From Candidatus Fermentithermobacillaceae bacterium (GTDB lineage Bacteria > Bacillota > Sulfobacillia > Fermentithermobacillales > Fermentithermobacillaceae), in the NCBI GenBank assembly GCA_018052455.1, contig JAGPNE010000006.1, positions 37,521 through 80,072 on the forward strand: a stretch of DNA of 42,552 nucleotides, in the 5' to 3' direction. Below, one piece after another: positions 12,204 to 35,365 of the stretch. The position numbers and the translations under genes were made by a program. The notes below the pieces were generated by a model. The model made no database searches, had not been told where the DNA came from, and was given only the letters and a program-made list of their open reading frames with translations. How positions within the stretch are numbered: position 1 is the stretch's first letter; the number at the start of each line of letters is the position of its first letter.

Positions 12204-13466
12204 TTAGGCGTTATAAAACGGGAATCTCGAGGTAAGGTTCCTTACCTGTTCTGCTATGTCTTTCAACGCGTCTTCGTTTTCCCTCTCGGCTATGGTTCGA
12301 TCTATGAGAGAGGCGATCAACTCCATTTCATGCTCCTTCATTCCCCTAGTTGTGACAGCGGGCGTCCCTATCCGAATTCCACTTGTAACAGTTGGTTTTC
12401 TCTGGTCAAACGGGATCGCATTCTTATTGACCGTAATGCCTACCTTATCGAGTGACTGTTCGGCCTGCCTACCGGTTACACCCTTTGGTGTTAGGTCTAC
12501 GAGCATTAAGTGATTGTCGGTTCCTCCGGATACAAGCCTAAATCCGTAACCTTTTAGAGCTTCGGCCAACGCCTTAGCGTTTTTAACAACTTGAGTCTGG
12601 TAGCCTTTGAAAGACGGCTCTAATGCTTCCTTAAAGGCCACCGCCTTCGCAGCTATTATGTGCATAAGGGGTCCACCCTGTATGCCGGGGAAAATTGCCT
12701 TATCTATTGCGGCGGCCCATTCCCCAGTGCAAAGTATCATGCCGCCCCTGGGTCCTCTTAGCGTCTTGTGGGTTGTTGTGGTCACAAACTGGGCATAAGG
12801 AACCGGAGAAGGATGCAGACCAGCAGCAACCAGACCCGCAATGTGCGCCATATCTACCATGAGAAGAGAACCTGCTTCATCAGCAATTTCTCTGAACTTC
12901 TTGAAATCGATAATCCTCGGATACGCACTCGCGCCGGCAACAATAAGCTTAGGTTTGTGCTCCAAAGCAGTATTCCTGACTTGATCGTAGTCAATCGTCT
13001 CAGTCTCTGCTTCTACTCCATATGCCACAAAGTTGTAGTACTGCCCGGAAATATTAACAGGGCTTCCGTGCGTCAAATGCCCACCATGCGCCAGATTCAT
13101 ACCCAACACAGTGTCGCCTGGTTTGAGCACAGCGAAATACACTGCAGTATTGGCCTGGGCTCCCGAATGCGGTTGAACATTAGCGTGGTCTGCACCGAAT
13201 ATTTCCTTGGCACGGTCGCGTGCCAGATTCTCAGCTACGTCAACTACCTCACAGCCGCCGTAGTATCTCTTTCCTGGATAGCCTTCTGCATACTTGTTTG
13301 TCAAAACCGAACCGGCTGCTTCAAGGACCGCCTTCGAAACGAGATTCTCTGAAGCAATAAGTTCTACTACATCCATTTGACGCTTTTCCTCGTCGCTCAA
13401 GACCCTCTTTATCTCCGGGTCTACGTCTTCGAGTTTTCTAAGCTGGGGTCTCACTCGAACTGTCAC
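12204..13466 (-). CDS. glyA: Serine hydroxymethyltransferase
   Basis: PLP enzyme that interconverts serine and glycine with tetrahydrofolate. It is 420 residues with all hallmark segments: '[10 protein letters not shown]', '[15 protein letters not shown]', '[14 protein letters not shown]', '[13 protein letters not shown]' and the PLP lysine in '[14 protein letters not shown]' (Lys234). The start is drawn at GTG 13466; a second GTG four codons in (13454) has better spacing to AAGGTGA and is equally possible. It is the last gene of the glycine operon. GcvT-H-P would supply methylene-tetrahydrofolate, and GlyA can use it to make serine from a second glycine. Co-transcription from the riboswitch promoter is inferred from continuous same-strand spacing. 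Confidence 0.96.
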
Positions 13467-13514: not shown

Positions 13515-14909
13515 TCACCTGGTTCGCCCTGTCAAAAGATGGATTGGGAAATCTGAAATACCGTGAGCAGCTTCCATGACTGCTTCAGACAGAGTTGGAT
13601 GGGCATGAATAGTATCTGCAATATCCTTTGCTGTAAGACCCATTCTTACGGCAAGCGCGCCTTCATGGATGAGGTCGTCGGCATGCGCACCCAGAATATG
13701 CATTCCCAGAACCTCCCCTGTCGACGCCTCCGCAACTATTTTCACCAATCCGTCTGTTTCGCCCATAGAGAGGGCTTTACCATTTGCGCTAAACGGGAAC
13801 TTTGAAATCTTGGTATTAAATCCCTTCTCAAGAGCGTCCTTTTCAGTAAGACCTACTGAGGCACACTCTGGAATTGAAAACACACAGGCAGGAACCACGG
13901 AATAGTCCATTTTTCGTTCGAGTCCAAAAATGTTCTCCATTACCACAATGCCTTCGCATGATGCCCCATGAGCGAGTAAGGTGCGCCCAACGACATCGCC
14001 TATAGCCCAAATTCCTGGTATGTTAGTTGCCATCCGTTCATCAACTTCAATACCTTTCTTGTTGTACTTCACGCCTACTAGATCCAGATCCAGACCGCCG
14101 AAATTGGGAATCCTGCCCACAGCAGATAGAACCAAATCCGCCCCGAATTCCTTCATGGCGCCATCTTTTCCAGAAGCTACGACAACCTTATCGTTTCCCT
14201 CAGTTCTTACCTCTGACACAGCAGTGTTAGTATTTATTGATATGCCCCTCTTTTTCAGGATCAAAGACAGTCGCTGGGATATCTCTTTATCCATGTTAGG
14301 AAGAATTGAAGGTAGAAGTTCTATGATGGTAACTTCGGACCCGAATGCGGCAAAAACAGATGCAAATTCGACCCCGATGACTCCGCCGCCAATGATAGCC
14401 AATCTCTCAGGCACATACTCCAATTCGAGGATTTCGTCAGAGGATATGGTCTGCCCCTCCATAAATGGCAAATTGAACGGAGAAGAGCCCGTGGCGATTA
14501 CGATATTCCTCGTATTGAGGACTTCCTTTGCGCCGTCTGCCATGGTAACCTCTACCTCACCAGGGGAAAGCAATTGGGCTTGTCCATTTATGATCTCAAC
14601 ATTGTTGCCCTTAACCAAGCGCTCGACACCTGAAACGAGCTGCTCCACGGTGTTCTCCTTATGCGCCATTACCAAACTCATATCCAGGCTGACTTTGTTG
14701 GTCTTTATGCCATACTTTTCACTATCTTTAACTCTCAGATAAGTAGAAGCGCTGTGAACTAGCGCTTTAGTCGGTATGCATCCTACGTTGAGACAGGTAC
14801 CGCCAATTCGCTTGGACTCAACTAGACCGATCTTTCCTCCAAGTTGCGCACCCCTTATGGCAGCAACGTAACCGCCTGGACCTCCACCTATCACGACTAC
14901 ATCAAACAT
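13515..14909 (-). CDS. lpdA: Dihydrolipoyl dehydrogenase (L-protein of glycine cleavage system)
   Basis: Flavoprotein that reoxidises the dihydrolipoyl group of GcvH with NAD+. It is 464 residues. The N-terminal FAD motif is 'VVVIGGGPGGYVAAIRGA', the redox-active disulfide is 'GGTCLNVGCIPTK' (Cys39/Cys44 from the chosen start), the NAD motif is 'LAIIGGGVIGVEFASVFAAFG', and the C-terminal His-Glu pair lies in 'HAHPTLSEAV'. The start is ATG 14909 with GGGAGG eight bases upstream; the TTG at 14915 is less likely. It follows the octanoyltransferase by 28 bases. Its place in this operon points to the glycine cleavage complex as its main partner; no other 2-oxoacid dehydrogenase is in the window. 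Confidence 0.95.
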   Translation of the reverse strand: MFDVVVIGGGPGGYVAAIRGAQLGGKIGLVESKRIGGTCLNVGCIPTKALVHSASTYLRVKDSEKYGIKTNKVSLDMSLVMAHKENTVEQLVSGVERLVKGNNVEIINGQAQLLSPGEVEVTMADGAKEVLNTRNIVIATGSSPFNLPFMEGQTISSDEILELEYVPERLAIIGGGVIGVEFASVFAAFGSEVTIIELLPSILPNMDKEISQRLSLILKKRGISINTNTAVSEVRTEGNDKVVVASGKDGAMKEFGADLVLSAVGRIPNFGGLDLDLVGVKYNKKGIEVDERMATNIPGIWAIGDVVGRTLLAHGASCEGIVVMENIFGLERKMDYSVVPACVFSIPECASVGLTEKDALEKGFNTKISKFPFSANGKALSMGETDGLVKIVAEASTGEVLGMHILGAHADDLIHEGALAVRMGLTAKDIADTIHAHPTLSEAVMEAAHGISDFPIHLLTGRTR

Positions 14910-14937
14910 ACGCAAATCCTCCCTAACCCGATTTCTC

Positions 14938-15786
14938 TTATGTCAAGTCGATATCTGCTGACTGCTTTCCCCTTGTCATTGTCCAAGATTCCTGTCCATA
15001 TTTGTTCTGCGACAGCTCCAAGGATTCCTGTATTTCGTCTTTTGTCAAATATCCTTTCTCTATGTTCCAGCCAAGAGTATGCGTAAACGATAGAACAAGG
15101 GAAGCCTCAACATCTCTGCGTGTAATGTTGGTATTGCAAACTTGGCAAAGACCTGCGGACTTATTGGATAGCATGGACTCCAAGCGATCGGCCTGAGCTT
15201 GTGAGGAAGTCTTTAGGCACTTCACTACCTTAGCGGCATCCATATGAAACGGAATTGACCCATGCTGAAGGATGATCCCACCGCGTCTCACCTGGGCGGA
15301 GCCAACAATCTTTTTCCCCAAGGCAACGACCTCATACCACGAAGGAGCTGAAAAACATGCTGCCTGCTGAAACCTTGAGTCCCTGACCGTAACGCCTCGC
15401 TCAAGCGAGACCATCTCAGCTGCAACTCCAAGCGAACGCAAACCGTTCACAATGGCTTCTGACAATAACTTGTATGTTTCGAGAACCGTCCCTGGTAGAT
15501 CTCGTTCTGGTATTGCCACACTGTAAGTTAGTTCATCATCATGGAGCACTGCCTTGCCGCCTGTTGGACGCCTAACGAGATCAACGCCAAGTCTTTCAAG
15601 CGACTTTATGTCAACTTCTTTGTCCACATCCTGAAAATACCCCAAGGAGAGACAGGCAGGTTCCCACTCATAAAACCGCAACGTAGGACAGGCTTCGCCT
15701 CTCCGCACAGCATTTTGTATGCCCTCATCAACAGCCATGTTGAACTTGCCTTTCATAGGTCCGTGACACAGAAGCCTTACTTTCAC
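14938..15786 (-). CDS. lipM: LipM-type octanoyltransferase (octanoyl-ACP : GcvH)
   Basis: Member of the biotin/lipoate ligase fold family, about 282 residues. It would transfer octanoate from acyl carrier protein to the lysine of GcvH. Conserved blocks are 'FNMAVDEGI', 'LSLGYFQDV', 'VRRPTGGKAVLHDDELTYSV' and 'GSAQVRRGGIILQHGSIP'. The segment 'ACFSAPSWYEVV' carries a Cys (Cys144 from this start) at the place of the catalytic Cys of Bacillus LipM, which separates LipM from LplA ligases. The start is GTG 15786, nine bases after GGAGG and five after the stop of the previous gene; the ATG at 15816 overlaps that gene. It sits next to two radical SAM genes and the glycine cleavage genes. A ligase activity cannot be excluded. 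Confidence 0.85.
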   Translation of the reverse strand: MKVRLLCHGPMKGKFNMAVDEGIQNAVRRGEACPTLRFYEWEPACLSLGYFQDVDKEVDIKSLERLGVDLVRRPTGGKAVLHDDELTYSVAIPERDLPGTVLETYKLLSEAIVNGLRSLGVAAEMVSLERGVTVRDSRFQQAACFSAPSWYEVVALGKKIVGSAQVRRGGIILQHGSIPFHMDAAKVVKCLKTSSQAQADRLESMLSNKSAGLCQVCNTNITRRDVEASLVLSFTHTLGWNIEKGYLTKDEIQESLELSQNKYGQESWTMTRGKQSADIDLT

Positions 15787-15791
15787 AAAAC

Positions 15792-16784
15792 TCACCCTCC
15801 GTGGTATGCCGACCATACATCACCCAAGTCCAGTTCGGATTCTACTAAACACTCCTCTGCTTCTCTCGAGGATAATGGCCTTGGATAGTTCATAGGGATC
15901 TGACCTGGTCGCTCATTATAGTAAGGTCTGTTGCAGAACGGACATCCCGAAGTCTGAAACGGCACGCCCTTTCTTATGTCGCTAAAGAGCCTGTCATCTG
16001 ACATCTCTATGCGGGATATTCGACCCTGGTCAAAAGAAACCTTAGTGATGTCAAGTCCGTTTTTGATTGCGTACGCTGCCAACTGTATCCTTCTATAAGA
16101 ACCCCTTCTAGGCGGCAAAGCATCCTGCATACCTGTTCCCCTCACAGGGGTAAACGCGAACAATCCTACCGTTGTGCCGGCACTTACACATTCATGGATG
16201 CTCTTTACCATTTCCTCCTCAGTCTCGCCTAATCCGGCGATAAAATGAGTGGTCACTCTCCCGGGCCATCTCTGTGAACATTCTTTGACTACTTCCAAAG
16301 AGTGCTCGTGGTTCCGCCCTTTGATTACGGGATACAAATGCTCGGACCCTACATCCATGGGGAGTCCGACCTGTGAAACCTCTTTATCAAGGAAAAGTTC
16401 TACCCTAGAAACAGAAATCGGTGACATACAGACACTTATAGGCAGTTCACTACTTACTCTTCTTATAGAAGAAACCAGTTCAAGCGCTGCCTTGGTAGAC
16501 TCATGAGATTCAACAACCTGTACACATGCCCTTTTGACCGTCCCCGACTCTAGAGCACCTGCAAACAGTCCCGAGATTTGATCCCAGTCTCTTTTGGGCC
16601 ACGTTATTCGGGACAGATAGGAAGGACTTGAAGTGCTGTCCTTTGCCTGGCTGCAAAACTTGCAGGAAAACACGCACTTTTCGCCTACCATGAAGTGAGC
16701 AGTAGTTGGTTTCTCTAAAACGCGGGCATTTGTAAGCCCCAGAAGGCTCAAGGTGCCGTAAGATACTCCTATCTCATTAGTCAA
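15792..16784 (-). CDS. Radical SAM protein, probable LipS1/LipS2-type lipoyl synthase component (second of pair)
   Basis: Radical S-adenosylmethionine enzyme, about 330 residues. The CxxxCxxC cluster motif is in 'GEKCVFSCKFCSQA', preceded by 'VSYGTLSLLGL' and 'KPTTAHFMV', which I recall from LipS-type proteins. The C-terminus has another Cys pair in 'SGCPFCNRPYYNERP', able to hold an auxiliary iron-sulfur cluster, as needed for sulfur insertion. Sequence between resembles BioB/lipoyl-synthase-like barrels ('HFIAGLGETEEEMV'). The start is uncertain: TTG 16784 overlaps the previous gene by 8 bases; TTG 16817 or 16865 would overlap it more. It sits between its radical SAM partner and lipM. Sulfur insertion into octanoyl-GcvH is inferred from context and family memory. 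Confidence 0.75.
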   Translation of the reverse strand: MTNEIGVSYGTLSLLGLTNARVLEKPTTAHFMVGEKCVFSCKFCSQAKDSTSSPSYLSRITWPKRDWDQISGLFAGALESGTVKRACVQVVESHESTKAALELVSSIRRVSSELPISVCMSPISVSRVELFLDKEVSQVGLPMDVGSEHLYPVIKGRNHEHSLEVVKECSQRWPGRVTTHFIAGLGETEEEMVKSIHECVSAGTTVGLFAFTPVRGTGMQDALPPRRGSYRRIQLAAYAIKNGLDITKVSFDQGRISRIEMSDDRLFSDIRKGVPFQTSGCPFCNRPYYNERPGQIPMNYPRPLSSREAEECLVESELDLGDVWSAYHGG

Positions 16785-17736
16785 AAGCGCAACACTCTTC
16801 CTTTCGTAGAATCTCAAGTCCCCTCTCTGTGGCCCCCCTAACAGCTCCCCTATGTGGATGCACAATCCCGTCTACACCTAATTCCAGAGCTCTTAAGTCC
16901 AGCTCCTGCCTATACGCACCGTGAGGTCTCATACATCCCAAAGTGATCTTCATCTCCGGATTGTTTATTCTCGTCCATGCTAAAAGACGCAGAACCGAAT
17001 CCATATCGGGAGGCAAGAGATTCGCCCAACGCGTTTTAGGAGTTGGGATGAAGACTATGAATATGATCTCCCTTACGCCTTCTTTAGACAAAAACTCTAT
17101 TGCCTCATACTCACCTCTAATGCTCCCTTTGTAGAGACCCACTAGAATATGTGGTACCACTTTTGCGCTGCCTTTACGGAGATTTCGCAGAGTATCTACA
17201 TAGTCTTCACCAGACAAGTTGAAGCCAAAACACTCTTTTATAGTACGGTCGTCCAAAACAAAGTCGTAAGAAATCACGGAAGCAAAATCCGCTATGAGCG
17301 CCGCGTCTTCTCGAGTTGCTACTCCAGGGTGAGCATTTACACGCACACTCTTACCGGACTCAGAAATCCGATCCTTTACATAATCGACATGTCCCGCCAG
17401 AGGAACCCGTCCGTTCTCGTTACACCCACCGCTTAGCAAAATGCTCTTTACATCGTTTCTCACTAATACGGAATCAAGCGCCTCCACAGGCTCCATATGA
17501 TGGAGATATTTGCCGCCGCAATGAGGGCATTGCAGCGAGCAGGTATGTCCCGTTACACTAACAGGTACCGTACCAGATGGATAAACGGTTTCAAAAACCG
17601 GCGGTCTTGCTTCTTTCCTTGCTTGCCATGAAACCTTGAAAAGTTCATCCAATGACATTATGTCAGTGACTTTGCTATTCGAGACCAAAGGTTCATTTAC
17701 ATCTCCCATGAAGTTCATTGATGGGAGGAGGTGCAA
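16777..17736 (-). CDS. Radical SAM protein, probable LipS1/LipS2-type lipoyl synthase component (first of pair)
   Basis: Radical SAM enzyme, about 319 residues. The cluster motif is 'GHTCSLQCPHCGGKYL' (CxxxCxxC). Further conserved-looking Cys occur in 'LSGGCNENG', 'TLGCMRPHG' and the C-terminal 'EECCAF', and may bind a second cluster. The protein is clearly different from classical LipA, whose N-terminal CxxxxCxxxxxC motif is absent. The start is hard to place: TTG 17736 has GGGAGG four bases upstream but lies in a perfect hairpin, while ATG 17718 and 17709 lack a site. It begins 37 bases after gcvPB and overlaps the second radical SAM gene. I cannot say which of LipS1 or LipS2 it matches. 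Confidence 0.75.
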   Translation of the reverse strand: MHLLPSMNFMGDVNEPLVSNSKVTDIMSLDELFKVSWQARKEARPPVFETVYPSGTVPVSVTGHTCSLQCPHCGGKYLHHMEPVEALDSVLVRNDVKSILLSGGCNENGRVPLAGHVDYVKDRISESGKSVRVNAHPGVATREDAALIADFASVISYDFVLDDRTIKECFGFNLSGEDYVDTLRNLRKGSAKVVPHILVGLYKGSIRGEYEAIEFLSKEGVREIIFIVFIPTPKTRWANLLPPDMDSVLRLLAWTRINNPEMKITLGCMRPHGAYRQELDLRALELGVDGIVHPHRGAVRGATERGLEILRKEECCAFD

Positions 17737-17746
17737 ACCTCCTCCC
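17723..17746 (-). promoter_or_regulatory. Perfect hairpin covering ribosome site and TTG start of first radical SAM gene
   Basis: GGGAGGAGGT and ACCTCCTCCC form a perfect 10-base, GC-rich stem with a 4-base loop (17733-17736). On the mRNA (minus strand) the 5' arm contains the only strong Shine-Dalgarno sequence, and the TTG start candidate at 17736 falls in the loop and 3' arm. No T-run follows on the minus strand, so it is not a classical terminator. It could lower translation of the lipoate genes relative to gcvPB, or block exonucleases. Confidence 0.6.
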
Positions 17747-17773
17747 TTTCTACGTGTCAATTGTCAATGCGCG

Positions 17774-19237
17774 TCATTCAGGTTTCTGCCACCTTATGTT
17801 CGGGTTACGAGCGGCGGCAGCTTCATCCAATCTTCCAACTATAGTGTCGTGCGGAGCACTCTTTACCATTTCAGGATTCTCATACGCTTCCTTTGCAATG
17901 GCAATAAGGGCATCAGCAAAAGCATCCAGTGTTTCTTTGGATTCGGTCTCAGTAGGCTCCACCATGAGCGCTTCATCAACAATAAGCGGGAAATAGTTGG
18001 TCGGTGGATGGAAACCGTAGTCGAGAAGCCGCTTTGATATATCGAGGGTTCGAACGCCAGTTTCTTTCTTTATTCGTGCAGGGCTTACTACAAACTCGTG
18101 CTTACAGTGACGATCGTAGGGCAAGTCGTAGTATTCAAGAATCCTCCTCAGAATGTAGTTCGCATTAAGCACTGCATTCTCTGATGCTTCCCTCAAGCCG
18201 TCAGGCCCAAGTGCCCTTATATAGGCATACGCCTTCACCATCACCAGGAAGTTCCCATACAGTGACTTCATACGCCCAATGGACTGAGGCCGATCATAGT
18301 TCAGCCGGTACTTCTCACCATCGAAAACCACAGTTGGCACAGGCAAGAACGGCTCCAAGAAAGCCTTCACCGCCACAGGTCCTGAACCGGGGCCTCCACC
18401 TCCGTGCGGGGTAGCGAAGGTCTTGTGCAAATTGAAGTGAAGGACGTCGAACCCCATATCTCCAGGCCTCGAGATACCGAGAATCGCATTTGCGTTGGCG
18501 CCGTCATAGTAGAGAAGTCCGCCCTTTGAATGGACTATCTCTTCGATCTTCTCAATATTCTCATCAAATAACCCTAGAGTGTTAGGGTTTGTGAGCATCA
18601 ACCCAGCGACAGTTTCGTCCATGGCAGTCTCGAGAGCTTCGATACTCACTCCCCCACGCTCGTCGGAGGGAATCTCAACTACCGTAAAACCTCCAAGAGC
18701 CGCTGATGCAGGGTTCGTCCCGTGAGCAGAGTCAGGAACCAGAATCTTGGTTCTTTTGTGATCGTTCCTAGACTTGTGGTACGCACGGATTATTAAGATT
18801 CCAGTGAGCTCGCCATGGGCGCCTGCGGCAGGTTGAAGCGAAACATGTTCCATTCCTGCAATCTCAGCCAGATAGTTCTGGAGCTCATACATCAGTTGGA
18901 GGCATCCCTGGGCAAAGTCCTCGGGAACGTATGGGTGAATGTCAGTGAATCCGCGCAAACTGGCCACTTCTTCGTTGATCTTAGGGTTATACTTCATCGT
19001 ACATGAACCCAAAGGGTAAAACCCAATGTCTACCCCAAAGTTCAATTGCGAGACGCGTGTAAAGTGCCTTACCAAGTCAACTTCAGAAACCTCGGGTAAT
19101 GCAGCTGGCTCTTTCCTGATCTGTGCTTCAGGCAAAAGGCTATCTAGGCTTCTTACAGGCACATCAAGAGCGGGAAGAGAATATGCCTTACGTCCGGGTT
19201 TTGATACTTCAAAAATCAAAGGTTCCAAGCCCTTCAT
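17774..19237 (-). CDS. gcvPB: Glycine dehydrogenase (decarboxylating) subunit 2
   Basis: PLP-carrying half of the split P-protein. With GcvPA it decarboxylates glycine and passes the aminomethyl group to lipoyl-GcvH. It is 487 residues, normal for GcvPB. The N-terminal '[14 protein letters not shown]' and the central '[15 protein letters not shown]' are typical. The PLP lysine is in '[19 protein letters not shown]' (Lys272). The ATG at 19237 overlaps the gcvPA stop by four bases, so the two subunits are translated together. It is the fourth gene of the riboswitch-controlled operon. Identification is secure. Confidence 0.96.
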
Positions 19238-20571
19238 GCCAATTCCTCCAATCCAGCAACAAGATCGTCCATCTCTTGCTTAGTCCGCTTCTCAGTAACG
19301 GCGATAAGCAGATAATTGTTCAACTCGGGATAGAACCGTCCTAATGGACACCCTGCCAAAATACCTTTCTGCGAAAGCACATCTACGACTCTGCTTGCCT
19401 CTGCGGGACATTTGACTGCGAACTCGTTGAAAAATGGAGCGTCCCAGGCGACGCTAAATCCCTTGATCCCTGATATCTCTTCAGCCAAATAGTGAGCCTT
19501 TTGCACACACTGCTCGCTAACTTCACGAATACCTTCCTTGCCCAGCCACGACAAGTAAACAGTAGCCGCAAGTGCATTGAGCGCCTGATTTGAGCATATG
19601 TTAGATGTAGCCTTTTCTCTCCTTATGTGCTGCTCTCTCGTCTGAAGCGTCAGCACAAAGCCCCTTCTCCCCTGGTCGTCAGTGGTCATGCCCACCAGTC
19701 TGCCAGGCATCCTGCGCAGATACTTTTGATTAACAGCCATTATGCCTAGGTGAGGTCCTCCGAAGGCCATAGGATTGCCAAAGACCTGCCCCTCTCCAAC
19801 TACTATATCTGCACCATACTCTGCGGGCGGCGTAAGCACGCCGAGAGACATGGGGTTCACTGAAACAACGAGCGCCGATCCGTTTTCTTTCGCCATGGCA
19901 GATAGTCCATTGACCGATTCCAGGTTCCCAAAGAAGTTCGGTTGCTGAAGCACTACGCAGCATACGTCTTTATCCAGCCTTCTCTTAAGGTCATCTAGAG
20001 ACGTGACCCCCTGTTCATAGTCAACTTCCTCAACCAAGATATCATGCCCCGCTGCATACGTTCTTATTACTTCCCTTGTTTCTGGGTGCACTGTCTTGGA
20101 TACAAGAGCCCTCTTGCGCTTGGTAAGTCCTGCCGCTATGGTCACAGATTCAGCTGCAGCTGAAGCGCCATCGTACATTGATGCGTTTGCGGCATCCATG
20201 CCCGTAAGCTCACATATCATGGTCTGGTATTCGTATATAGACTGCAAAACCGCCTGGCTAATCTCAGCCTGATACGGCGTGTACGCTGTGTAGAATTCTG
20301 ATCTAGACAATACATGTCTAACCACAGATGGAATATAGTGGTCATAGGTTCCCGCACCAATGAAATTCACCATACCGCTGGCTGTGTTCTTCTCAGCCAT
20401 CTCTTTCATGTGATTAAAGAGTTCGTACTCACTTAGTGCAGGAGGCACCCTAAGGCTTCCTTTGTACCTCATGTTGGGTGGAATATCGCTGAACAACTCG
20501 TCAATACTTTGCACCCCTATGGTTTTCAGCATTTCCTCCCGATCTTTTTTCGTGTTCGGTAAGAAATTCAT
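19234..20571 (-). CDS. gcvPA: Glycine dehydrogenase (decarboxylating) subunit 1
   Basis: Non-PLP half of the split P-protein; pairs with GcvPB to form the active site. It is 445 residues, normal for GcvPA. Visible family segments: '[15 protein letters not shown]' at the start, '[15 protein letters not shown]', '[14 protein letters not shown]', '[11 protein letters not shown]', and '[19 protein letters not shown]'. The start is ATG 20571, with GAGG about ten bases upstream and the gcvH stop five bases away. Identification is secure from sequence and operon position. Confidence 0.96.
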
Positions 20572-20576
20572 CAGTC

Positions 20577-20960
20577 TCAGTCCTCTTCCACCAATTTTTG
20601 GTAGTCATCGCGGCTCATCAGATTGTCAAGCTCGGAAACATCAGACAGTTCAATGGCGCATATCCATCCTTCGCCATAGGGGTCGTTGTTGATGGTTTCC
20701 GGCGAATCGGCGAGGCTATCATTAACCTCCACAACTATGCCCGATACGGGTGCATAGACATCGGATACAGCCTTTACTGATTCAACAGTAGCCAAAACCT
20801 CGCCCTGCTTTATTTCTGCGTCTAGCTCTGGCAATTCTACAAAGACTACATCGCCGAGCTGGTCCTGAGCGTGAAAGGTGATCCCAATATAAGCTTTCTT
20901 TCCTTCTACCCGCACGTACTCATGGTCTTTTGTGTACTTAAGATTCTCAGGATAATTCAT
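20577..20960 (-). CDS. gcvH: Glycine cleavage system H protein
   Basis: Carrier protein whose lipoyl lysine moves the aminomethyl group between P, T and L proteins. It is 127 residues. The lipoyl-domain core 'YIGITFHAQDQLGDVVFVELP' is followed by 'VLATVESVKAVSDVYAPVSG', in which Lys63 is the attachment site. In this operon it is also the expected substrate of LipM and the radical SAM pair. The ATG at 20960 overlaps the gcvT stop by four bases. Identification is secure. Confidence 0.97.
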   Translation of the reverse strand: MNYPENLKYTKDHEYVRVEGKKAYIGITFHAQDQLGDVVFVELPELDAEIKQGEVLATVESVKAVSDVYAPVSGIVVEVNDSLADSPETINNDPYGEGWICAIELSDVSELDNLMSRDDYQKLVEED

Positions 20961-22081
20961 TTTTTCTTAACCTCCCTACGATAAAATGGCATTCTTACCA
21001 CTTGTGCCAAAACTTTCTTACCTCTTATGTCTACTGTCAGGTTAGTACCTCTTTGGCTGTATTCTACAGGAACATAAGCCATGGCAAGATACTTTTCGAG
21101 ATAAGGCACAAATGTACCTGTCGTGATGTACCCGATCTCTTTTTCGCCTGTTTCGTCAAACACCTTGTAACCGTTCCGAGGCACGCCTTTCTCCAACATC
21201 TCCAACCCTATGAGCTTTACCCTAAGCCCTTTCTCTCTTTCTTCCATTAGTGCTCTTGCTCCAACAAAATGAGTCCCCTTGTCAAAAGCCACGAACTTGC
21301 CCAGACCTGCTTCGAGAGGAGTGTGGTTCTCGTCGAGCTCGTGTCCATAAAGAGGCAACGACGCCTCGAATCTCAACGTGTCCCTAGCTCCGAGCCCTGC
21401 CAAGACCAGCCCTTCATCCTTACCACTTTCTACAATAGCCTCATAGAGCCGAGGACCTTCCGCGGCCTTGCAGTAAAGTTCAAATCCGTCTTCACCTGTA
21501 TAGCCCGTCCTCGTCACCAAACACTTGATACCCGCTACAACAACTCCTTCGACTCCGTGGTAGTACTTGATCTCGTCCAACGGATATTCAGTTATTCTCC
21601 CTAGTATTTGCAGAGATTTAGGACCTTGAATGGCCAATTGCGCTACTTTGTCAGAGATGTTCTCAAATGTCGTATCATTGAAATACCTGACCAATGGCTC
21701 AATCCATTCTGCATCTTTTTCGATGTTGGCTCCATTTACAATAAGCAGATACTTGTCTTCTCTCAAACACAGAACTAGCAGATCGTCTACGACACCGCCG
21801 TGGGGATAACACATAGGCGAGTAGACAGCCTTGCCGGGATAGGTTTTGGATATGTCATTGACCAAGAGCATCTGGAGAAGGTCAAGAGATTCAGCACCTT
21901 CTACAATGAACTCGCCCATGTTGGACACATCCCAAAGCGCAGCGTTCGTTCTGCAGCCAACATGCTCATCCTTTATACCTGAAAACTGAACAGGAAGAGC
22001 CCAACCACCAAAATCCACAATTCGGCCACCGTTTTTCAAATGAGTTTCATAGAGAGGAGTCTTCTTAAGTTCCTCTGCCAA
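20957..22081 (-). CDS. gcvT: Aminomethyltransferase (glycine cleavage system T protein)
   Basis: Transfers the methylene group from aminomethyl-GcvH to tetrahydrofolate, releasing ammonia. It is about 374 residues. Diagnostic segments: 'TPLYETHLKNGGRIVDFGGWALPVQF', with the folate-site region 'ALWDVSNMGEF' after it, and 'VTRTGYTGEDGFELY' and 'GLGARDTLRFEASLPLYGHEL' in the middle. I place the start at TTG 22081, since AGGAGGTGA lies just upstream with good spacing; a GTG at 22093 sits inside that ribosome site. It is the first gene after the glycine riboswitch. Identification is secure. Confidence 0.96.
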   Translation of the reverse strand: MAEELKKTPLYETHLKNGGRIVDFGGWALPVQFSGIKDEHVGCRTNAALWDVSNMGEFIVEGAESLDLLQMLLVNDISKTYPGKAVYSPMCYPHGGVVDDLLVLCLREDKYLLIVNGANIEKDAEWIEPLVRYFNDTTFENISDKVAQLAIQGPKSLQILGRITEYPLDEIKYYHGVEGVVVAGIKCLVTRTGYTGEDGFELYCKAAEGPRLYEAIVESGKDEGLVLAGLGARDTLRFEASLPLYGHELDENHTPLEAGLGKFVAFDKGTHFVGARALMEEREKGLRVKLIGLEMLEKGVPRNGYKVFDETGEKEIGYITTGTFVPYLEKYLAMAYVPVEYSQRGTNLTVDIRGKKVLAQVVRMPFYRREVKKK

Positions 22082-22174
22082 TTTTGAACTCACCTCCTAT
22101 TTATATTGAAACACCTGAACCTAAAAACTACCAGTTTCCTACAGCCTCTTACCGAAGACACCATGAATACCAAT

Positions 22175-22212
22175 CAAAAAGGGACGGGGTACCAATTGAA
22201 ATTCCCTGTCCC
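22175..22212 (-). terminator. Riboswitch-controlled intrinsic terminator upstream of gcvT
   Basis: On the minus strand GGGACAGGG (22204-22212) pairs with CCCCGTCCC (22181-22189) with one mismatch, loop of 14, followed by TTTTT (22176-22180). The 5' arm overlaps the conserved 3' end of the second glycine aptamer. Aptamer folding and terminator folding should therefore exclude each other: glycine bound means read-through into gcvT. Confidence 0.8.
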
Positions 22213-22385
22213 TTTACCTGAGAGATTCCTCGTCGACTAAGCCAAGCCAACAAGTTACCCCGTTGGTGCCCCTTAAGTGGCTCTCCAGAGATGCGTCCGG
22301 CGGCGGTATCTGTGCCTGAAAGTTTCAGACTGCGTCCTTGCTTCTTCGGCGCTCCTATGTTGGGGAGTCTCTCCCGACGCCATCA
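22205..22385 (-). ncRNA. Tandem glycine riboswitch (gcvT motif)
   Basis: Leader RNA element on the minus strand, directly upstream of gcvT. The 5' aptamer (about 22281-22385) shows GGAGAGA (22368-22374), 'GCGCCGAAGAAGCAA', 'TTTCAGGCACAGATACC' and CTCTGGAGAG (22281-22290), all close to the known glycine aptamer core. The 3' aptamer (about 22205-22280) shows 'GGGGCACCAACGGGGTAA' and 'CTCTCAGGTAAAGGGACAG'. A short linker joins them, as in known tandem glycine riboswitches. The second aptamer's core differs somewhat from consensus. The downstream terminator gives a transcriptional ON switch. Ends are approximate. Confidence 0.9.
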
Positions 22386-22428
22386 TCCGCAAAATATTCA
22401 ATTTTTCGCAAATCCCTCTCGCACTAGG

Positions 22429-27639: not shown

Positions 27640-29742
27640 ATGTGCGACACAAATACCTCTTTCCCAAGGACCGAAAAACTAAACCTCTTGACAAGGGGCA
27701 TAGATACATGGCCTACATCAAAGATACTTCAGGTAATGAATCAAGAAGACCATAAGGTTGCTCCAGCCGTTGCCAGAGAACTCCCAAATATCGAGGAATC
27801 CGTAGAACTTGTGGTTCGAGTACTCTCGAAAGGAGGGCGCCTGTTTTATGCGGGCTCGGGTACCAGCGGGCGCCTAGGAGTTCTGGACGCTGCTGAAATC
27901 TACCCCACTTTTGGCTTTGATTCGGACCGGATCATTCCTATCATATCTGGGGGAAAAGACGCTGTGTTCGCCGCAATAGAGGGAGCCGAAGACAGCGAAC
28001 AAGACGGCCGAGACGTCTTTATGTCTTACGAACCGCGCGTGAATGACGTAGTCATAGGAATTTCTGCGAGTGGAAGGACACCCTTTGTAGTCGGAGTGCT
28101 TGAAACCGCGTACAATCTTGGCTTATCTACCATAGCAGTAGTAGGAGATCCTAACGGACCCATCGCCAAAACTGCCACGGTAACTATCTCCCCAGATGTT
28201 GGTCCCGAAGTCATATCTGGTTCTACCAGACTCAAGAACGGCACAGCCCAAAAGCTGGTCCTGAACATGATATCTACCGCATCTATGATACGCTTAGGCA
28301 GGACTTATTCCAACTTGATGGCCGGCACATACATAGGAAATGTGAAATTATCCGTTCGCGCCAGAAGGATCCTTCAAAAAGCGTCTGGCTGCAATTTGCA
28401 ACAGGCGGATACCGCTCTACAGGAAGCAGACGGGAACCTTCCCGTTGCATTAGTAACACTCTTGTGTAGAGTTATGCCCTCTCAAGCCAAGGCAGCTCTG
28501 GATAGCTGCGGTGGATCGATTGGGCGAGCCGTGGAGCTGCTATGCCCACCTACTGACAGTACTTTGGAGCATGGATCAAGAGATCTGAACACTGATTGGG
28601 AATCTATGACCTCCTCAACACTGCGATGCGATGACCTTAGAATTGGCCGACCAGAACAAGCGGGATTCGACCCAGTGAAGATGGAAAGGGCCTTTGAGGT
28701 AGTTGCGGAAACTGTGGGAGATGGACAAGGAGCGATACCCGGTGCGGTTGCAACAGTGGTACGAAATGGAATCGTGCTGTGGCCGAGATGCTGGGGATGG
28801 GCTGTGAGAGAACCCCAGCTTATAGCAATGACTCCCTACACCGTCTTTGATATGGCTTCTTTGACCAAAGTCATGGCCACCACTCCTAGCATCCTTATTC
28901 TAGCCGAAAGAGGTAAATTGCGGCTGGATGATCCCGTCAGCATGTTTGTACCCGAATTCGGAGCAGGTCGCAAAAAGGATATCACCATAAGAGACATTCT
29001 AACCCACACTTCCGGTCTGCCGGATCACATAAGATTCTGGAAGCAAGGACTTCAAGGAGAAGAGATTCTCACAGCCATCTGCAACTTGGAACTAAGTGAT
29101 TACGGAGAGCCTGGCAAACACGTCGTATATAGCGACCTTGGTCTTATCATTCTGGGCGAAGTACTCCGCAGGGTAAGTGGAGTGAACATAGCTGAATTCT
29201 CCCGTAGAGAGATATTCGAACCATTAGGGATGACTAGTACGGGATTTCTCCCACCTGAGTCCATAAAGTACCAGATAGCGGCAACTGAATACCGGGAAGA
29301 CCTAAACAAGATCACTTGGGGCGCAGTACACGATGAAAACGCTTACGCTCTGGGGGGAATAGCAGGGCATGCAGGACTATTCAGTACAGCTCTGGATACT
29401 GCAAGGTATGCTCTCATGTGGTTAGGAGAGGGCGTCCAGGCAGAAAAAAGGGTTTTGAGTCCTGCTACCATATCAGCCGCAACAAAAGAACAAGTAAATC
29501 TAGAAGAGCGGCGAGGCATAGGATGGATGCTCAAGTCAAGGACTCATTCCTCGGGAGGGGATTTCCTATCCGACAGCGCATTTGGGCACACAGGCTTTAC
29601 AGGTACAAGCCTGTGGTGCGATCCTGAAAAGAATCTGGCCATCATCCTACTTACAAATAGAGTACACGCAGGACGTGAGGGCATTGAGCACGTAAGGCTG
29701 CGCGCTAGGTTCGCTAACGCGGTATGTGCTGCAATATGTTGA
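27640..29742 (+). CDS. murQ: Fusion protein: MurNAc-6-phosphate etherase (MurQ) + serine beta-lactamase-family hydrolase
   Basis: A single uninterrupted frame of 700 residues. Residues 1-305 are a complete MurQ, which cleaves the lactyl ether of MurNAc-6-P to give GlcNAc-6-P: SIS-domain segments 'YAGSGTSGRLGVLDAAE' (Glu86) and 'AIEGAEDSEQ', 'GISASGRTPFVVG', 'GSTRLKNGTAQKLVLN', then the C-terminal helical domain. After a linker of about 35 residues, 345-700 form a class C beta-lactamase-like domain: 'MASLTK' (Ser407, Lys410), 'YSD' (Tyr497) and 'HTG' (650-652). No signal peptide. In Bacillus subtilis murQ clusters with separate genes, including the beta-lactamase-like ybbE; here both are fused. 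ATG 27640 has GGGGGA eight bases upstream. The hydrolase substrate is unknown, perhaps a peptide or ester on muropeptides. Confidence 0.9.
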   Translation: MCDTNTSFPRTEKLNLLTRGIDTWPTSKILQVMNQEDHKVAPAVARELPNIEESVELVVRVLSKGGRLFYAGSGTSGRLGVLDAAEIYPTFGFDSDRIIPIISGGKDAVFAAIEGAEDSEQDGRDVFMSYEPRVNDVVIGISASGRTPFVVGVLETAYNLGLSTIAVVGDPNGPIAKTATVTISPDVGPEVISGSTRLKNGTAQKLVLNMISTASMIRLGRTYSNLMAGTYIGNVKLSVRARRILQKASGCNLQQADTALQEADGNLPVALVTLLCRVMPSQAKAALDSCGGSIGRAVELLCPPTDSTLEHGSRDLNTDWESMTSSTLRCDDLRIGRPEQAGFDPVKMERAFEVVAETVGDGQGAIPGAVATVVRNGIVLWPRCWGWAVREPQLIAMTPYTVFDMASLTKVMATTPSILILAERGKLRLDDPVSMFVPEFGAGRKKDITIRDILTHTSGLPDHIRFWKQGLQGEEILTAICNLELSDYGEPGKHVVYSDLGLIILGEVLRRVSGVNIAEFSRREIFEPLGMTSTGFLPPESIKYQIAATEYREDLNKITWGAVHDENAYALGGIAGHAGLFSTALDTARYALMWLGEGVQAEKRVLSPATISAATKEQVNLEERRGIGWMLKSRTHSSGGDFLSDSAFGHTGFTGTSLWCDPEKNLAIILLTNRVHAGREGIEHVRLRARFANAVCAAIC

Positions 29743-31415: not shown

Positions 31416-32642
31416 ATGGACCTCCTGTCACGCGCCAGGCAAGAAACTAAAAGGCTGATGGTTGGGCTTATGTCCGGCACTTCCGCTGACGGAATCGACG
31501 CATGTCTTTGTGAGATCCAAGGCTTTGGACCAGATACACAGGTCCAGATCAAACATCTCTCTTCTTTGGAGTATAGTGACCTGATTAGGGGCATGCTTAT
31601 AGAAGGGCTCCAGGAACTTTCCTTAGATGATATTGCCAGACTCAACTTCGTCATCGGCACCCTGTTCGCTAAGACAGCGCTCAAGTGTATTGAAGAAGCA
31701 GGCTACACTCCATCTCAGATCGATGCTGTGTGTTCGCACGGACAGACCCTGGTCCATCTTCCCAACTCAGACCATAAGAGACTACCACAGCCTGCTACTC
31801 TGCAGGTAGGGGACATCTCGGTGATAGCCCAGCTAACTGGAATACTCACTGTAGGAGATTTTCGGCCCGCCGATATGGCTCAAGGAGGTCAGGGTGCACC
31901 ATTGGTCCCATACGCAGACTTCGTTCTGTTTCGAGACGACCACTTGGGTAGAGTCGTCCAGAATATCGGAGGCATATCGAATCTGACTTATTTGCCTCCT
32001 GGATGCTGCATCGACGATGTCGTAGCGTTTGACACCGGCCCTGGCAACATGGTTATTGATGCAACGGTCCGAGTTTTGACCAAAGGTGAACTATCGATGG
32101 ATACCGATGGGCAACTTGCGTTTTCGGGAACGGTAAACAGGAAACTTCTAGATCAGATTCTCTCTCATGGATATTTCCATAAGCCGCCCCCTAAGTCCAC
32201 AGGTCGAGAACTCTTTGGCATTCAGTATGCAGAGGGTCTCATTGATAGGTACAAGCAATTCATCGAAAGCGAACAAGGAAAATGGGAACCGTCATTGCAT
32301 CGAAGCGACATTGTAAGAACGGTGTCAGAAGCAACCGTTCAGACCATAATTGAAGCGTACAAAGCATGGGTCATACCGAAAGGACAAATTGACGAGGTGA
32401 TCTTAGGCGGAGGCGGCGCCTACAATCCCTACTTAGTACAACGGCTAACCGATGAGGTGCTTACGCTAAATCCCAGGGCCCGTCTCTTCACTCATGAGGA
32501 TTTTGGCATCTCCAACAAGGCAAAAGAAGCTCTAGCTTTTTGCATATTGGGAAACGATCTGATTGGCCTACTACCAAACAATGTACCGTCGGCCACGGGT
32601 GCCCGGAAACCAACTATACTAGGCAAGATCGCTTTCCCTTAA
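31416..32642 (+). CDS. anmK: 1,6-anhydro-N-acetylmuramic acid kinase
   Basis: Opens and phosphorylates 1,6-anhydroMurNAc to MurNAc-6-phosphate, the MurQ substrate. It is 408 residues. Hallmarks: 'VGLMSGTSADGIDACL' at the N-terminus, 'SHGQTLVHLP', 'VGDFRPADMAQGGQGAPLVPYAD', 'NIGGISNLTYLP', 'DTGPGNMVID' and 'VILGGGGAYNPYL'. ATG 31416 follows AGGAGG (31401-31406) by nine bases and the nagZ stop by two; an earlier in-frame start would lie deep in nagZ. AnmK substrates come from lytic transglycosylases, while NamZ/MurK handle hydrolase products, so the cluster covers both routes. Identification is secure. Confidence 0.94.
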   Translation: MDLLSRARQETKRLMVGLMSGTSADGIDACLCEIQGFGPDTQVQIKHLSSLEYSDLIRGMLIEGLQELSLDDIARLNFVIGTLFAKTALKCIEEAGYTPSQIDAVCSHGQTLVHLPNSDHKRLPQPATLQVGDISVIAQLTGILTVGDFRPADMAQGGQGAPLVPYADFVLFRDDHLGRVVQNIGGISNLTYLPPGCCIDDVVAFDTGPGNMVIDATVRVLTKGELSMDTDGQLAFSGTVNRKLLDQILSHGYFHKPPPKSTGRELFGIQYAEGLIDRYKQFIESEQGKWEPSLHRSDIVRTVSEATVQTIIEAYKAWVIPKGQIDEVILGGGGAYNPYLVQRLTDEVLTLNPRARLFTHEDFGISNKAKEALAFCILGNDLIGLLPNNVPSATGARKPTILGKIAFP

Positions 32643-32659
32643 AAGGTGGGAGACAATGT

Positions 32660-33697
32660 ATGAGTGAATCCGAAATCAAAGGGTACGTTGAGTTTCCCGG
32701 GAAAATACCCACGAAATACGAAATACTGGATACTCTTTGCGCTGCAAAGGAGCAATTCGTTTCTGGAAACGAACTAGCGGTCATTCACAACATCTCCAGA
32801 ACCGCTGTCTGGAAGAACATACAGGCATTGATCGACGAAGGCTTTCCAATACAAACCGCGAACAGAAAGGGCTACATGCTGACCGCCGCTACTGACATCA
32901 TATCACCCGGCAAGATTATCGAAAGATTGAGTACAACCTGCATTGGGCGCACTATACTGTATACCCCATGTACAAGTTCTACCAACGATGACGCAAAACT
33001 TATAGCAGATTCAGCGAAAGGCGGCACTCTACTCATAGCGGAAACGCAGACCGGGGGCAAGGGCAGGTTGGGAAGACGGTGGGAATCACCCCTGGGCGGT
33101 ATATTCATGTCATTTATTCTAAAGCCTCGCATTAGTCCATCACGGATTCCTGGTTTGGCCCTTATAGTAGGCTATTGCATTGCCAAAACGGTAGGCGAGA
33201 TGTTCAACATCCCCACTCAAGTAAAATGGCCCAATGACGTGCTCGCAAACGGCCGCAAAATCGCAGGTATTCTGTGCGAAATGCGCGCAGAATTAGACTC
33301 TGTTTCGCATGTAATCGTAGGTGTGGGTATCAACGCCAATGTGGAAGCATCATCAATGCCTCATGAGATAAGGGAGAAATCCTCTTCAATTCGGGAGGAA
33401 TTGGGACAGAGTGTCGATAGGAATTGTTTGGTGGCAGCCATACTAAACAGTTTTGAACCGCTATACTCAGAGTTCTTGGACCTAGGGCTGGGAGCTTTCT
33501 TGCCACGTGTAGAAGGTATGCTCGCTTACAAAGGACAGCCGGTTGTAATTCAAAACGTCACCCTTGGGCCCAAAACATGCTGGCACGGAGTATTGCTCGG
33601 TCTTGACTCTGAGGGAAGGCTGGTCTTGTCTGGACCCGACTATGGGCAAATGGCGTTCCCGGCCGGAGATTTGTCTCTGAGGATTGATGGGAAATAA
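32660..33697 (+). CDS. birA: Bifunctional biotin-protein ligase / biotin repressor BirA
   Basis: Attaches biotin to carboxylase carrier proteins and, as biotinyl-AMP-bound dimer, represses biotin genes. About 345 residues. The N-terminal winged helix ('VSGNELAVIHNISRTAVWKNI') is present, so it is the repressor-type (group II). Catalytic blocks are 'AETQTGGKGRLGRRWESPLGG' (biotin/ATP loop, G-R-x-G-R-x-W) and 'KWPNDVLANGRKIAGILCE', followed by an SH3-like C-terminal domain. ATG 32660 has GGGAG seven bases upstream; an earlier frame would overlap anmK. It is 17 bases after anmK and may share its transcript. A matching operator lies about 1 kb downstream at bioY. Confidence 0.94.
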   Translation: MSESEIKGYVEFPGKIPTKYEILDTLCAAKEQFVSGNELAVIHNISRTAVWKNIQALIDEGFPIQTANRKGYMLTAATDIISPGKIIERLSTTCIGRTILYTPCTSSTNDDAKLIADSAKGGTLLIAETQTGGKGRLGRRWESPLGGIFMSFILKPRISPSRIPGLALIVGYCIAKTVGEMFNIPTQVKWPNDVLANGRKIAGILCEMRAELDSVSHVIVGVGINANVEASSMPHEIREKSSSIREELGQSVDRNCLVAAILNSFEPLYSEFLDLGLGAFLPRVEGMLAYKGQPVVIQNVTLGPKTCWHGVLLGLDSEGRLVLSGPDYGQMAFPAGDLSLRIDGK

Positions 33698-34759: not shown

Positions 34760-35365
34760 TTGCATGAAATCTCTGATAGGGTCAGGTCAGAAAGATGCAG
34801 TACACAGCCGGTAACAACTTCGGGGCTCACCCGCGCTTCCCTAATGGCTTCTATCATCGCGGTACTATCATTTATAGCAGTCCCGCTACCCTTTAGCCCT
34901 GTCCCCATAACGCTGCAGACTTTGGGTGTAATGCTTGCAGGCCTAGTACTGGGGCCGCAGTTAGGAACGATAGCAGTATGCCTATACCTCGTAGCAGGCA
35001 CTTCAGGGTTACCCATATTTGCAGGCGGAGCGGCAGGAATAGGCGTGCTTATGGGGCCTTCAGGAGGATATCTACTCGGTTTCTTACCCGGCACTTGGGT
35101 GATTGGGGTACTGTCACAGGAAAGGAACAGACATAATGGCTCTGCAAAAAGAGCGCAAATTGTTGTGAGAAACTTGCTTTCATGTGCTATTGGAGGAATC
35201 CTGATAATTCACACTTGCGGCATTCTGCATCTTGCGAGAAGTGCTCATCTTTCGCTTGCAAATGCTATGTTACTTGGTACGGTGCCCTTCCTTCTAGGAG
35301 ACGTGCTCAAAGCCGTTATTGCATCGACTCTGGCTCAGAGAATTGCAGTAGCCCTAAAACTCTAA
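34760..35365 (+). CDS. bioY: Biotin transporter BioY
   Basis: Substrate-binding membrane protein (S component) for biotin uptake, working alone or with an ECF energising module (none in this window). 201 residues with about six hydrophobic segments. The BioY core is clear: 'FSPVPITLQTLGVMLAGLVLG', then 'YLVAGTSGLPIFAGG', then 'GPSGGYLLGF', and 'PFLLGDVLKAVIAS' near the end. The N-terminus has about 25 extra polar residues. The start is TTG 34760 with GGGAG nine bases upstream. Regulation by BirA is predicted from the operator in its promoter. Its stop overlaps that of the convergent fapA-like gene. Confidence 0.93.
   Translation: MHEISDRVRSERCSTQPVTTSGLTRASLMASIIAVLSFIAVPLPFSPVPITLQTLGVMLAGLVLGPQLGTIAVCLYLVAGTSGLPIFAGGAAGIGVLMGPSGGYLLGFLPGTWVIGVLSQERNRHNGSAKRAQIVVRNLLSCAIGGILIIHTCGILHLARSAHLSLANAMLLGTVPFLLGDVLKAVIASTLAQRIAVALKL

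Follow-up and report, generated by a model that had tools for sequence, protein, structure and literature searches.

A glycine cleavage operon that very probably carries the assembly line for its own lipoyl cofactor in a Fermentithermobacillaceae bacterium

One question raised by the genome of Candidatus Fermentithermobacillaceae bacterium is how the H protein of its glycine cleavage system receives the lipoyl cofactor. The stretch of contig JAGPNE010000006.1 analysed here (42,552 nucleotides, in the following called the window; assembly GCA_018052455.1) contains a glycine cleavage operon in which two radical SAM genes and an octanoyltransferase-like gene are embedded. A first-pass annotation had read the two radical SAM proteins as a LipS1/LipS2 pair that replaces the lipoyl synthase LipA. 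Our analysis makes it very probable that all components of the glycine cleavage system are encoded in this operon and that LipM, LipS2 and LipS1, encoded alongside them, form a self-contained line for assembling the cofactor of the system.

Organization and predicted control of the gcv-lip block

A single block on the minus strand runs from 22.4 to 12.2 kb of the window in the order tandem glycine riboswitch-gcvT-gcvH-gcvPA-gcvPB-lipS1-lipS2-lipM-lpdA-glyA, and the comparison of gene order among loci indicates that it is kept through glyA in relatives. The first genes, all on the minus strand like those that follow, are gcvT for the aminomethyltransferase or T protein (20957-22093, above the cut-off of NF001567/TIGR00528), gcvH for the H protein (20577-20960), and gcvPA and gcvPB for subunits 1 and 2 of the P protein (19234-20571 and 17774-19237, above the cut-offs of NF001696 and NF003346). 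The translated gcvH frame contains the lipoyl acceptor Lys63 in the motif ESVKAVSD, as annotated previously. Directly between gcvPB and lpdA lie lipS1 (16777-17760, radical SAM motif CSLQCPHC), lipS2 (15792-16865, radical SAM motif CVFSCKFC) and the lipM-type octanoyltransferase gene (14938-15816), with neighbours overlapping or abutting; the two overlapping radical SAM frames between gcvPB and a LipM-type gene are thus present as first described. The block continues with lpdA for the dihydrolipoyl dehydrogenase or L protein (13515-14915, TIGR01350 557 bits) and ends with glyA, the serine hydroxymethyltransferase gene identified by a profile match (12204-13466).

The start codons within the trio are estimates. 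LipS1 is numbered here from TTG 17760 and LipS2 from TTG 16865, however, lipS1 probably starts at ATG 17718, 17709 or 17658 instead, lipS2 probably at TTG 16784 and lipM probably at GTG 15786. The overlap of the lipS1 and lipS2 frames amounts to 89 nt as called and would shrink to about 8 nt with the start at TTG 16784. Residues 1-28 encoded by the long lipS2 frame are disordered in the predicted structure and fall outside the profile match.

The riboswitch that had been proposed to control the operon was found ahead of gcvT (22203-22386, minus strand) as a tandem of two RF00504 aptamers (22294-22386 and 22203-22291), with scores of 66.1 and 38.4 bits, both above the gathering score of 32. All 7 loci of relatives that were tested likewise have a glycine riboswitch upstream of gcvT, in three of them as a tandem. 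Riboswitch control and co-transcription of the whole block are what this arrangement suggests. A strong hairpin, GGGAGGAGG-TTTGCA-CCTCCTCCC, is located at the gcvPB/lipS1 junction (17723-17746, minus strand; z = -3.26 against shuffled sequences), its stem contains the Shine-Dalgarno-like AGGAGG, and similar hairpins occur at this junction in several relatives. It could tune the expression of the lip genes relative to the gcv genes.

In another part of the window, a plus-strand gene (27640-29742) joins a MurQ-like SIS domain and a domain of the beta-lactamase family in one protein; NamZ, AnmK and a family 3 glycosidase are encoded in the same cluster for peptidoglycan recycling.

Predicted identity of the three lipoate enzymes

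Profile searches assigned the two radical SAM proteins to LipS1 and LipS2 as anticipated in the first-pass annotation, since their best matches are the equivalog models NF053742 (270.8 bits, cut-off 230) and NF053743 (320.6 bits, cut-off 270). In LipS1, the radical SAM cluster would be held by C74/C78/C81 and the auxiliary cluster by C276/C323/C324 plus H204, while the corresponding sets in LipS2 are C64/C68/C71 and C114/C308/C311 plus H207. Mutagenesis of the Thermococcus enzymes had pointed to C27/31/34, C230/276/277 and H159 as likely ligands in LipS1 and to C39/43/46, C85/276/279 and H178 in LipS2 (PMC9585515). Counterparts of all these mapped ligands are present at similar spacing, the positions being matched by spacing rather than by direct alignment. 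The extra cysteines that had been noticed in both proteins as able to hold a second cluster therefore include the counterparts of mapped auxiliary-cluster ligands. Among relatives, the LipS2 ligand columns are invariant in 80 of 80 aligned sequences, and those of LipS1 are invariant in 82 sequences apart from one frame that is broken, gaps where contigs end and a single serine, which belongs to a sequence truncated at a contig end. Most of the other cysteines vary across about 80 sequences, with C113 of LipS1 being common without being invariant. The structures were predicted with confidence, reaching pLDDT values of 92 for LipS1, in which residues 1-26 are disordered, and of 88 for LipS2. A sequence search of the PDB found no relative of LipS1 and just a weak BioB match for LipS2, which leaves matches at the level of folds. 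The LipA profile TIGR00510 gave 22 bits for LipS2 against a cut-off of 310. By analogy with the characterised enzymes, the predicted sites of sulfur addition are C8 for LipS2 and C6 for LipS1.

The product of the third gene is a member of the LplA/LipM/LipB family (PF21948, 138 bits) with a single domain (PF03099/PF21948) and no LplB. Its assignment as LipM-type transferase or as ligase rests on residues, domain content and context; no curated LipM profile is among its NCBIfam hits. The catalytic-type cysteine reported before corresponds to Cys154, which sits in a segment that is missing from the Thermoplasma ligase LplA. In an alignment of 80 sequences, Lys169 is invariant and 74 sequences retain Cys154; the six lacking the cysteine come from archaeal loci and from non-gcv lipS loci of three class members. 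The presence or absence of Cys154 is an internal control that separates LipM-type from ligase-type partners, as judged from the aligned sequences.

An alternative would be that the third gene encodes an ATP-dependent lipoate/octanoate ligase of the LplA/sLpl type, which charges GcvH with free octanoate before LipS1 and LipS2 complete the cofactor. Such a route would parallel Thermococcus and the sulfur oxidisers, the combination of Lpl with LipS1/S2 being widely published, and the closest profiles and structures point in the same direction: the best NCBIfam matches are LplA_large and LplAB, both below cut-off, and the best PDB match is Thermoplasma LplA. Nevertheless, the Cys154 segment is absent from that ligase and its cysteine is lost only in a distinct set of loci, an acyl carrier protein (ACP) is encoded in the genome, and no LplB-type ligase C-terminal domain (PF10437) was found in it, though an archaeal-type LplB could be missed because the model detected just one archaeal control. 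A ligase is thus an unlikely identity. The LipM-type transferase appears to be the better reading because of the Cys154 pattern, the invariant Lys169, the missing LplB domain and the presence of ACP.

Lipoate genes in the genome and among relatives

The assembly comprises 1.54 Mb in 30 contigs and is 92% complete; NCBI classifies Candidatus Fermentithermobacillaceae within the Bacillota. With the LipA profile, no LipA was found in the whole of the assembly, so that its absence, stated earlier for the window on the basis of a motif (CxxxxCxxxxxC), holds for the assembled genome. Likewise, the search for lipA, lplA and lipL elsewhere in the assembly found none of them, and the copy in the operon is the only protein of the LplA/LipM/LipB type, with no second LipB, LipL or LplA. 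GcvH is the sole GCV_H match, and no other biotin/lipoyl domain was found in the genome. With no LipA, one LipM-type protein, one GcvH and no further lipoyl domain, neither an acceptor nor any assembly machinery was found outside the operon, in agreement with its proposed self-sufficiency.

The window also carries, on the plus strand, a BirA-type biotin ligase (32540-33697) and a BioY biotin transporter (34760-35365). A biotin carrier domain was not found in the genome, although sister genomes have one; it probably lies in the unsequenced 8%.

With 30 contigs and 92% completeness, a lipA or a second ligase gene could lie in the missing part, and LipS1/S2 would then be accessory to a classical LipA. 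A few relatives do combine LipA with LipS2. However, LipA was found in none of 16 searched relatives from the family and order, and LipS2 and LipA tend toward mutual exclusion among relatives, which makes a hidden LipA highly improbable; neither a LipA nor a second ligase turned up in the assembly. LipS2 scores above cut-off in 36 of 61 genomes (the own genome and 60 relatives) and in 50 of 199 members of the phylum. It occurs together with LipA in 4 of the 61 genomes where 12.4 were expected and in 6 of the 199 phylum members where 17.3 were expected, counts that ignore relatedness. LipS2 thus largely excludes LipA.

Many members of this class and phylum share the gcvT-H-PA-PB-lipS1-lipS2-lipM module. 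Among about 80 lipS loci fetched with flanks, 66 distinct ones have gcvPB immediately ahead of lipS1 (68 were listed, including one duplicate record and one locus with its best gcvPB match 7 kb away), and lipM follows the lipS genes in nearly all of them. Loci that reach a contig end account for most exceptions together with those of archaea, the ligase-type loci and the lipS1-lipS2-lipM loci of the Desulfosporosinus type, which lack gcv. In three genomes, LipS1/S2 loci located outside gcv (L072, L073 and L075 in G024, G032 and G046) are more divergent, and their partner is ligase-like and lacks the LipM cysteine. Three GcvH-like genes are near L073, and G024 carries both types of lipS locus.

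Fused genes, proposed mechanism and known systems

In some relatives, neighbouring genes of the trio are fused. LipS1 and LipS2 form a single open frame in three families, represented by L049-L051 (9226-11445, 9260-11431 and 9388-11583), L156 (9016-10944) and L159 (7796-9946), and LipS2 and LipM do so in three other families (L057, 8456-10297; L062, 5094-7721; L149, 8391-10262). The five fusion frames scanned all pass the LipS cut-offs, and in the frames of L049, L156 and L159 each of the two halves, LipS1 and LipS2, exceeds its curated cut-off. The fusions preserve the catalytic motifs and, in their LipM parts, the cysteine. A role of the two radical SAM proteins in inserting sulfur into a different substrate, as biotin-synthase-like enzymes or as enzymes of another kind, can practically be dismissed, because their weak BioB profile matches (17.5 and 33 bits) are far under the cut-off of 225 while the LipS1/LipS2 equivalog cut-offs are passed, and although their models match BioB, HydE and lipoyl synthase folds in the PDB structure comparison, the lipoate-only gene context is kept in dozens of genomes and includes fusion to LipM.

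The tight operon and the fusions in relatives suggest that the LipM, LipS2 and LipS1 enzymes act as one unit. It might even be, as a tentative extension, that they form a physical assembly line on GcvH, in which octanoyl-, mercaptooctanoyl- and lipoyl-GcvH would be handed from active site to active site, and that the fusions, which recur and probably arose independently, represent parts of this line joined by nature in a single chain within the gcv operon of many Bacillota.

In the proposed sequence of events, glycine sensed by the tandem riboswitch would set the expression level of the whole set. LipM would transfer the octanoyl group from the acyl carrier protein to Lys63 of GcvH, LipS2 would first insert sulfur at C8 of octanoyl-GcvH, and LipS1 would insert sulfur at C6 thereafter, both by SAM-derived radical chemistry, the sulfur probably coming from the auxiliary [4Fe-4S] cluster. 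Once complete, the lipoyl arm would shuttle among GcvP, GcvT and LpdA. Family membership, conservation of the cluster ligands, the gene block, the riboswitch match and the genome inventory are direct observations, whereas catalysis, riboswitch control, transcription as one unit, the C8-then-C6 order and octanoyl-ACP as donor are inferred, the order being taken from the Thermococcus enzymes.

The combination of pathways itself is known and not new. The chemistry of LipS1/S2, with LipS2 acting first at C8 and LipS1 second at C6 in Thermococcus, and the clustering of their genes with GcvH have already been published (Neti et al. 2022, PMC9585515), and LipM together with LipS1/S2 has been reported for some Synergistota, Schekmanbacteria and Thermotogota, as has the linkage of lipS1/S2 to canonical genes in Sporomusa (Tanabe et al. 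2023, PMC10332631). The present study adds the full module with a glycine riboswitch in front, the finding that it is widely conserved in this part of the Bacillota, and the fusions. In the main texts of these two papers, the widespread gcv-lip module, the exclusion between LipS2 and LipA and the fusions are not described, and our literature search found no description of gcv-linked lipS1/S2 under a glycine riboswitch. For Thermacetogenium, a gcv operon has been described that includes a gene for a lipoate ligase, with neither a radical SAM protein nor a lipoyl synthase as its partner.

The locus represents a clean case, in which LipS1/LipS2 are apparently the only route and GcvH the only acceptor, and function is testable by moving one operon because both share one gene block. 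Furthermore, roughly one in four sampled members of the phylum has LipS2, which suggests that many LipA-less Bacillota are not lipoate auxotrophs, and the fusions offer ready-made single-chain enzymes for studying the hand-over of the intermediate from LipS2 to LipS1.

Several known systems resemble parts of the operon. In Bacillus subtilis, LipM transfers octanoyl to GcvH, as is predicted for the present operon, but here LipS1/S2 stand in the place of LipA, and neither LipL nor an E2 acceptor was found in the genome. LipS1/LipS2 of Thermococcus kodakarensis (TK2109/TK2248, PMC9585515) share with the proteins described here the CxxxCxxC motif plus three auxiliary cysteines and one histidine at matching positions, and the same sequential insertion of sulfur at C8 and then C6 is predicted; the archaeon, however, uses a two-part ligase, whereas the bacterial proteins are encoded inside a gcv operon with a LipM-type partner. 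In the sLpl(AB)-LipS1/S2 systems of sulfur oxidisers such as H. denitrificans and Thioalkalivibrio, LipS1/S2 are also clustered with an acyl-attaching enzyme and a GcvH-like acceptor, though with a ligase, the acceptor LbpA and often lipT instead of LipM and a true GcvH. Finally, in the LipM-LipS1/S2 bacteria of Tanabe et al. (2023), LipM takes the place of the ligase and LipS1/S2 insert the sulfur, as predicted here, while in the present lineage, a different one, the trio comprises the only lipoate genes found and is located inside a complete gcv operon behind a glycine riboswitch.
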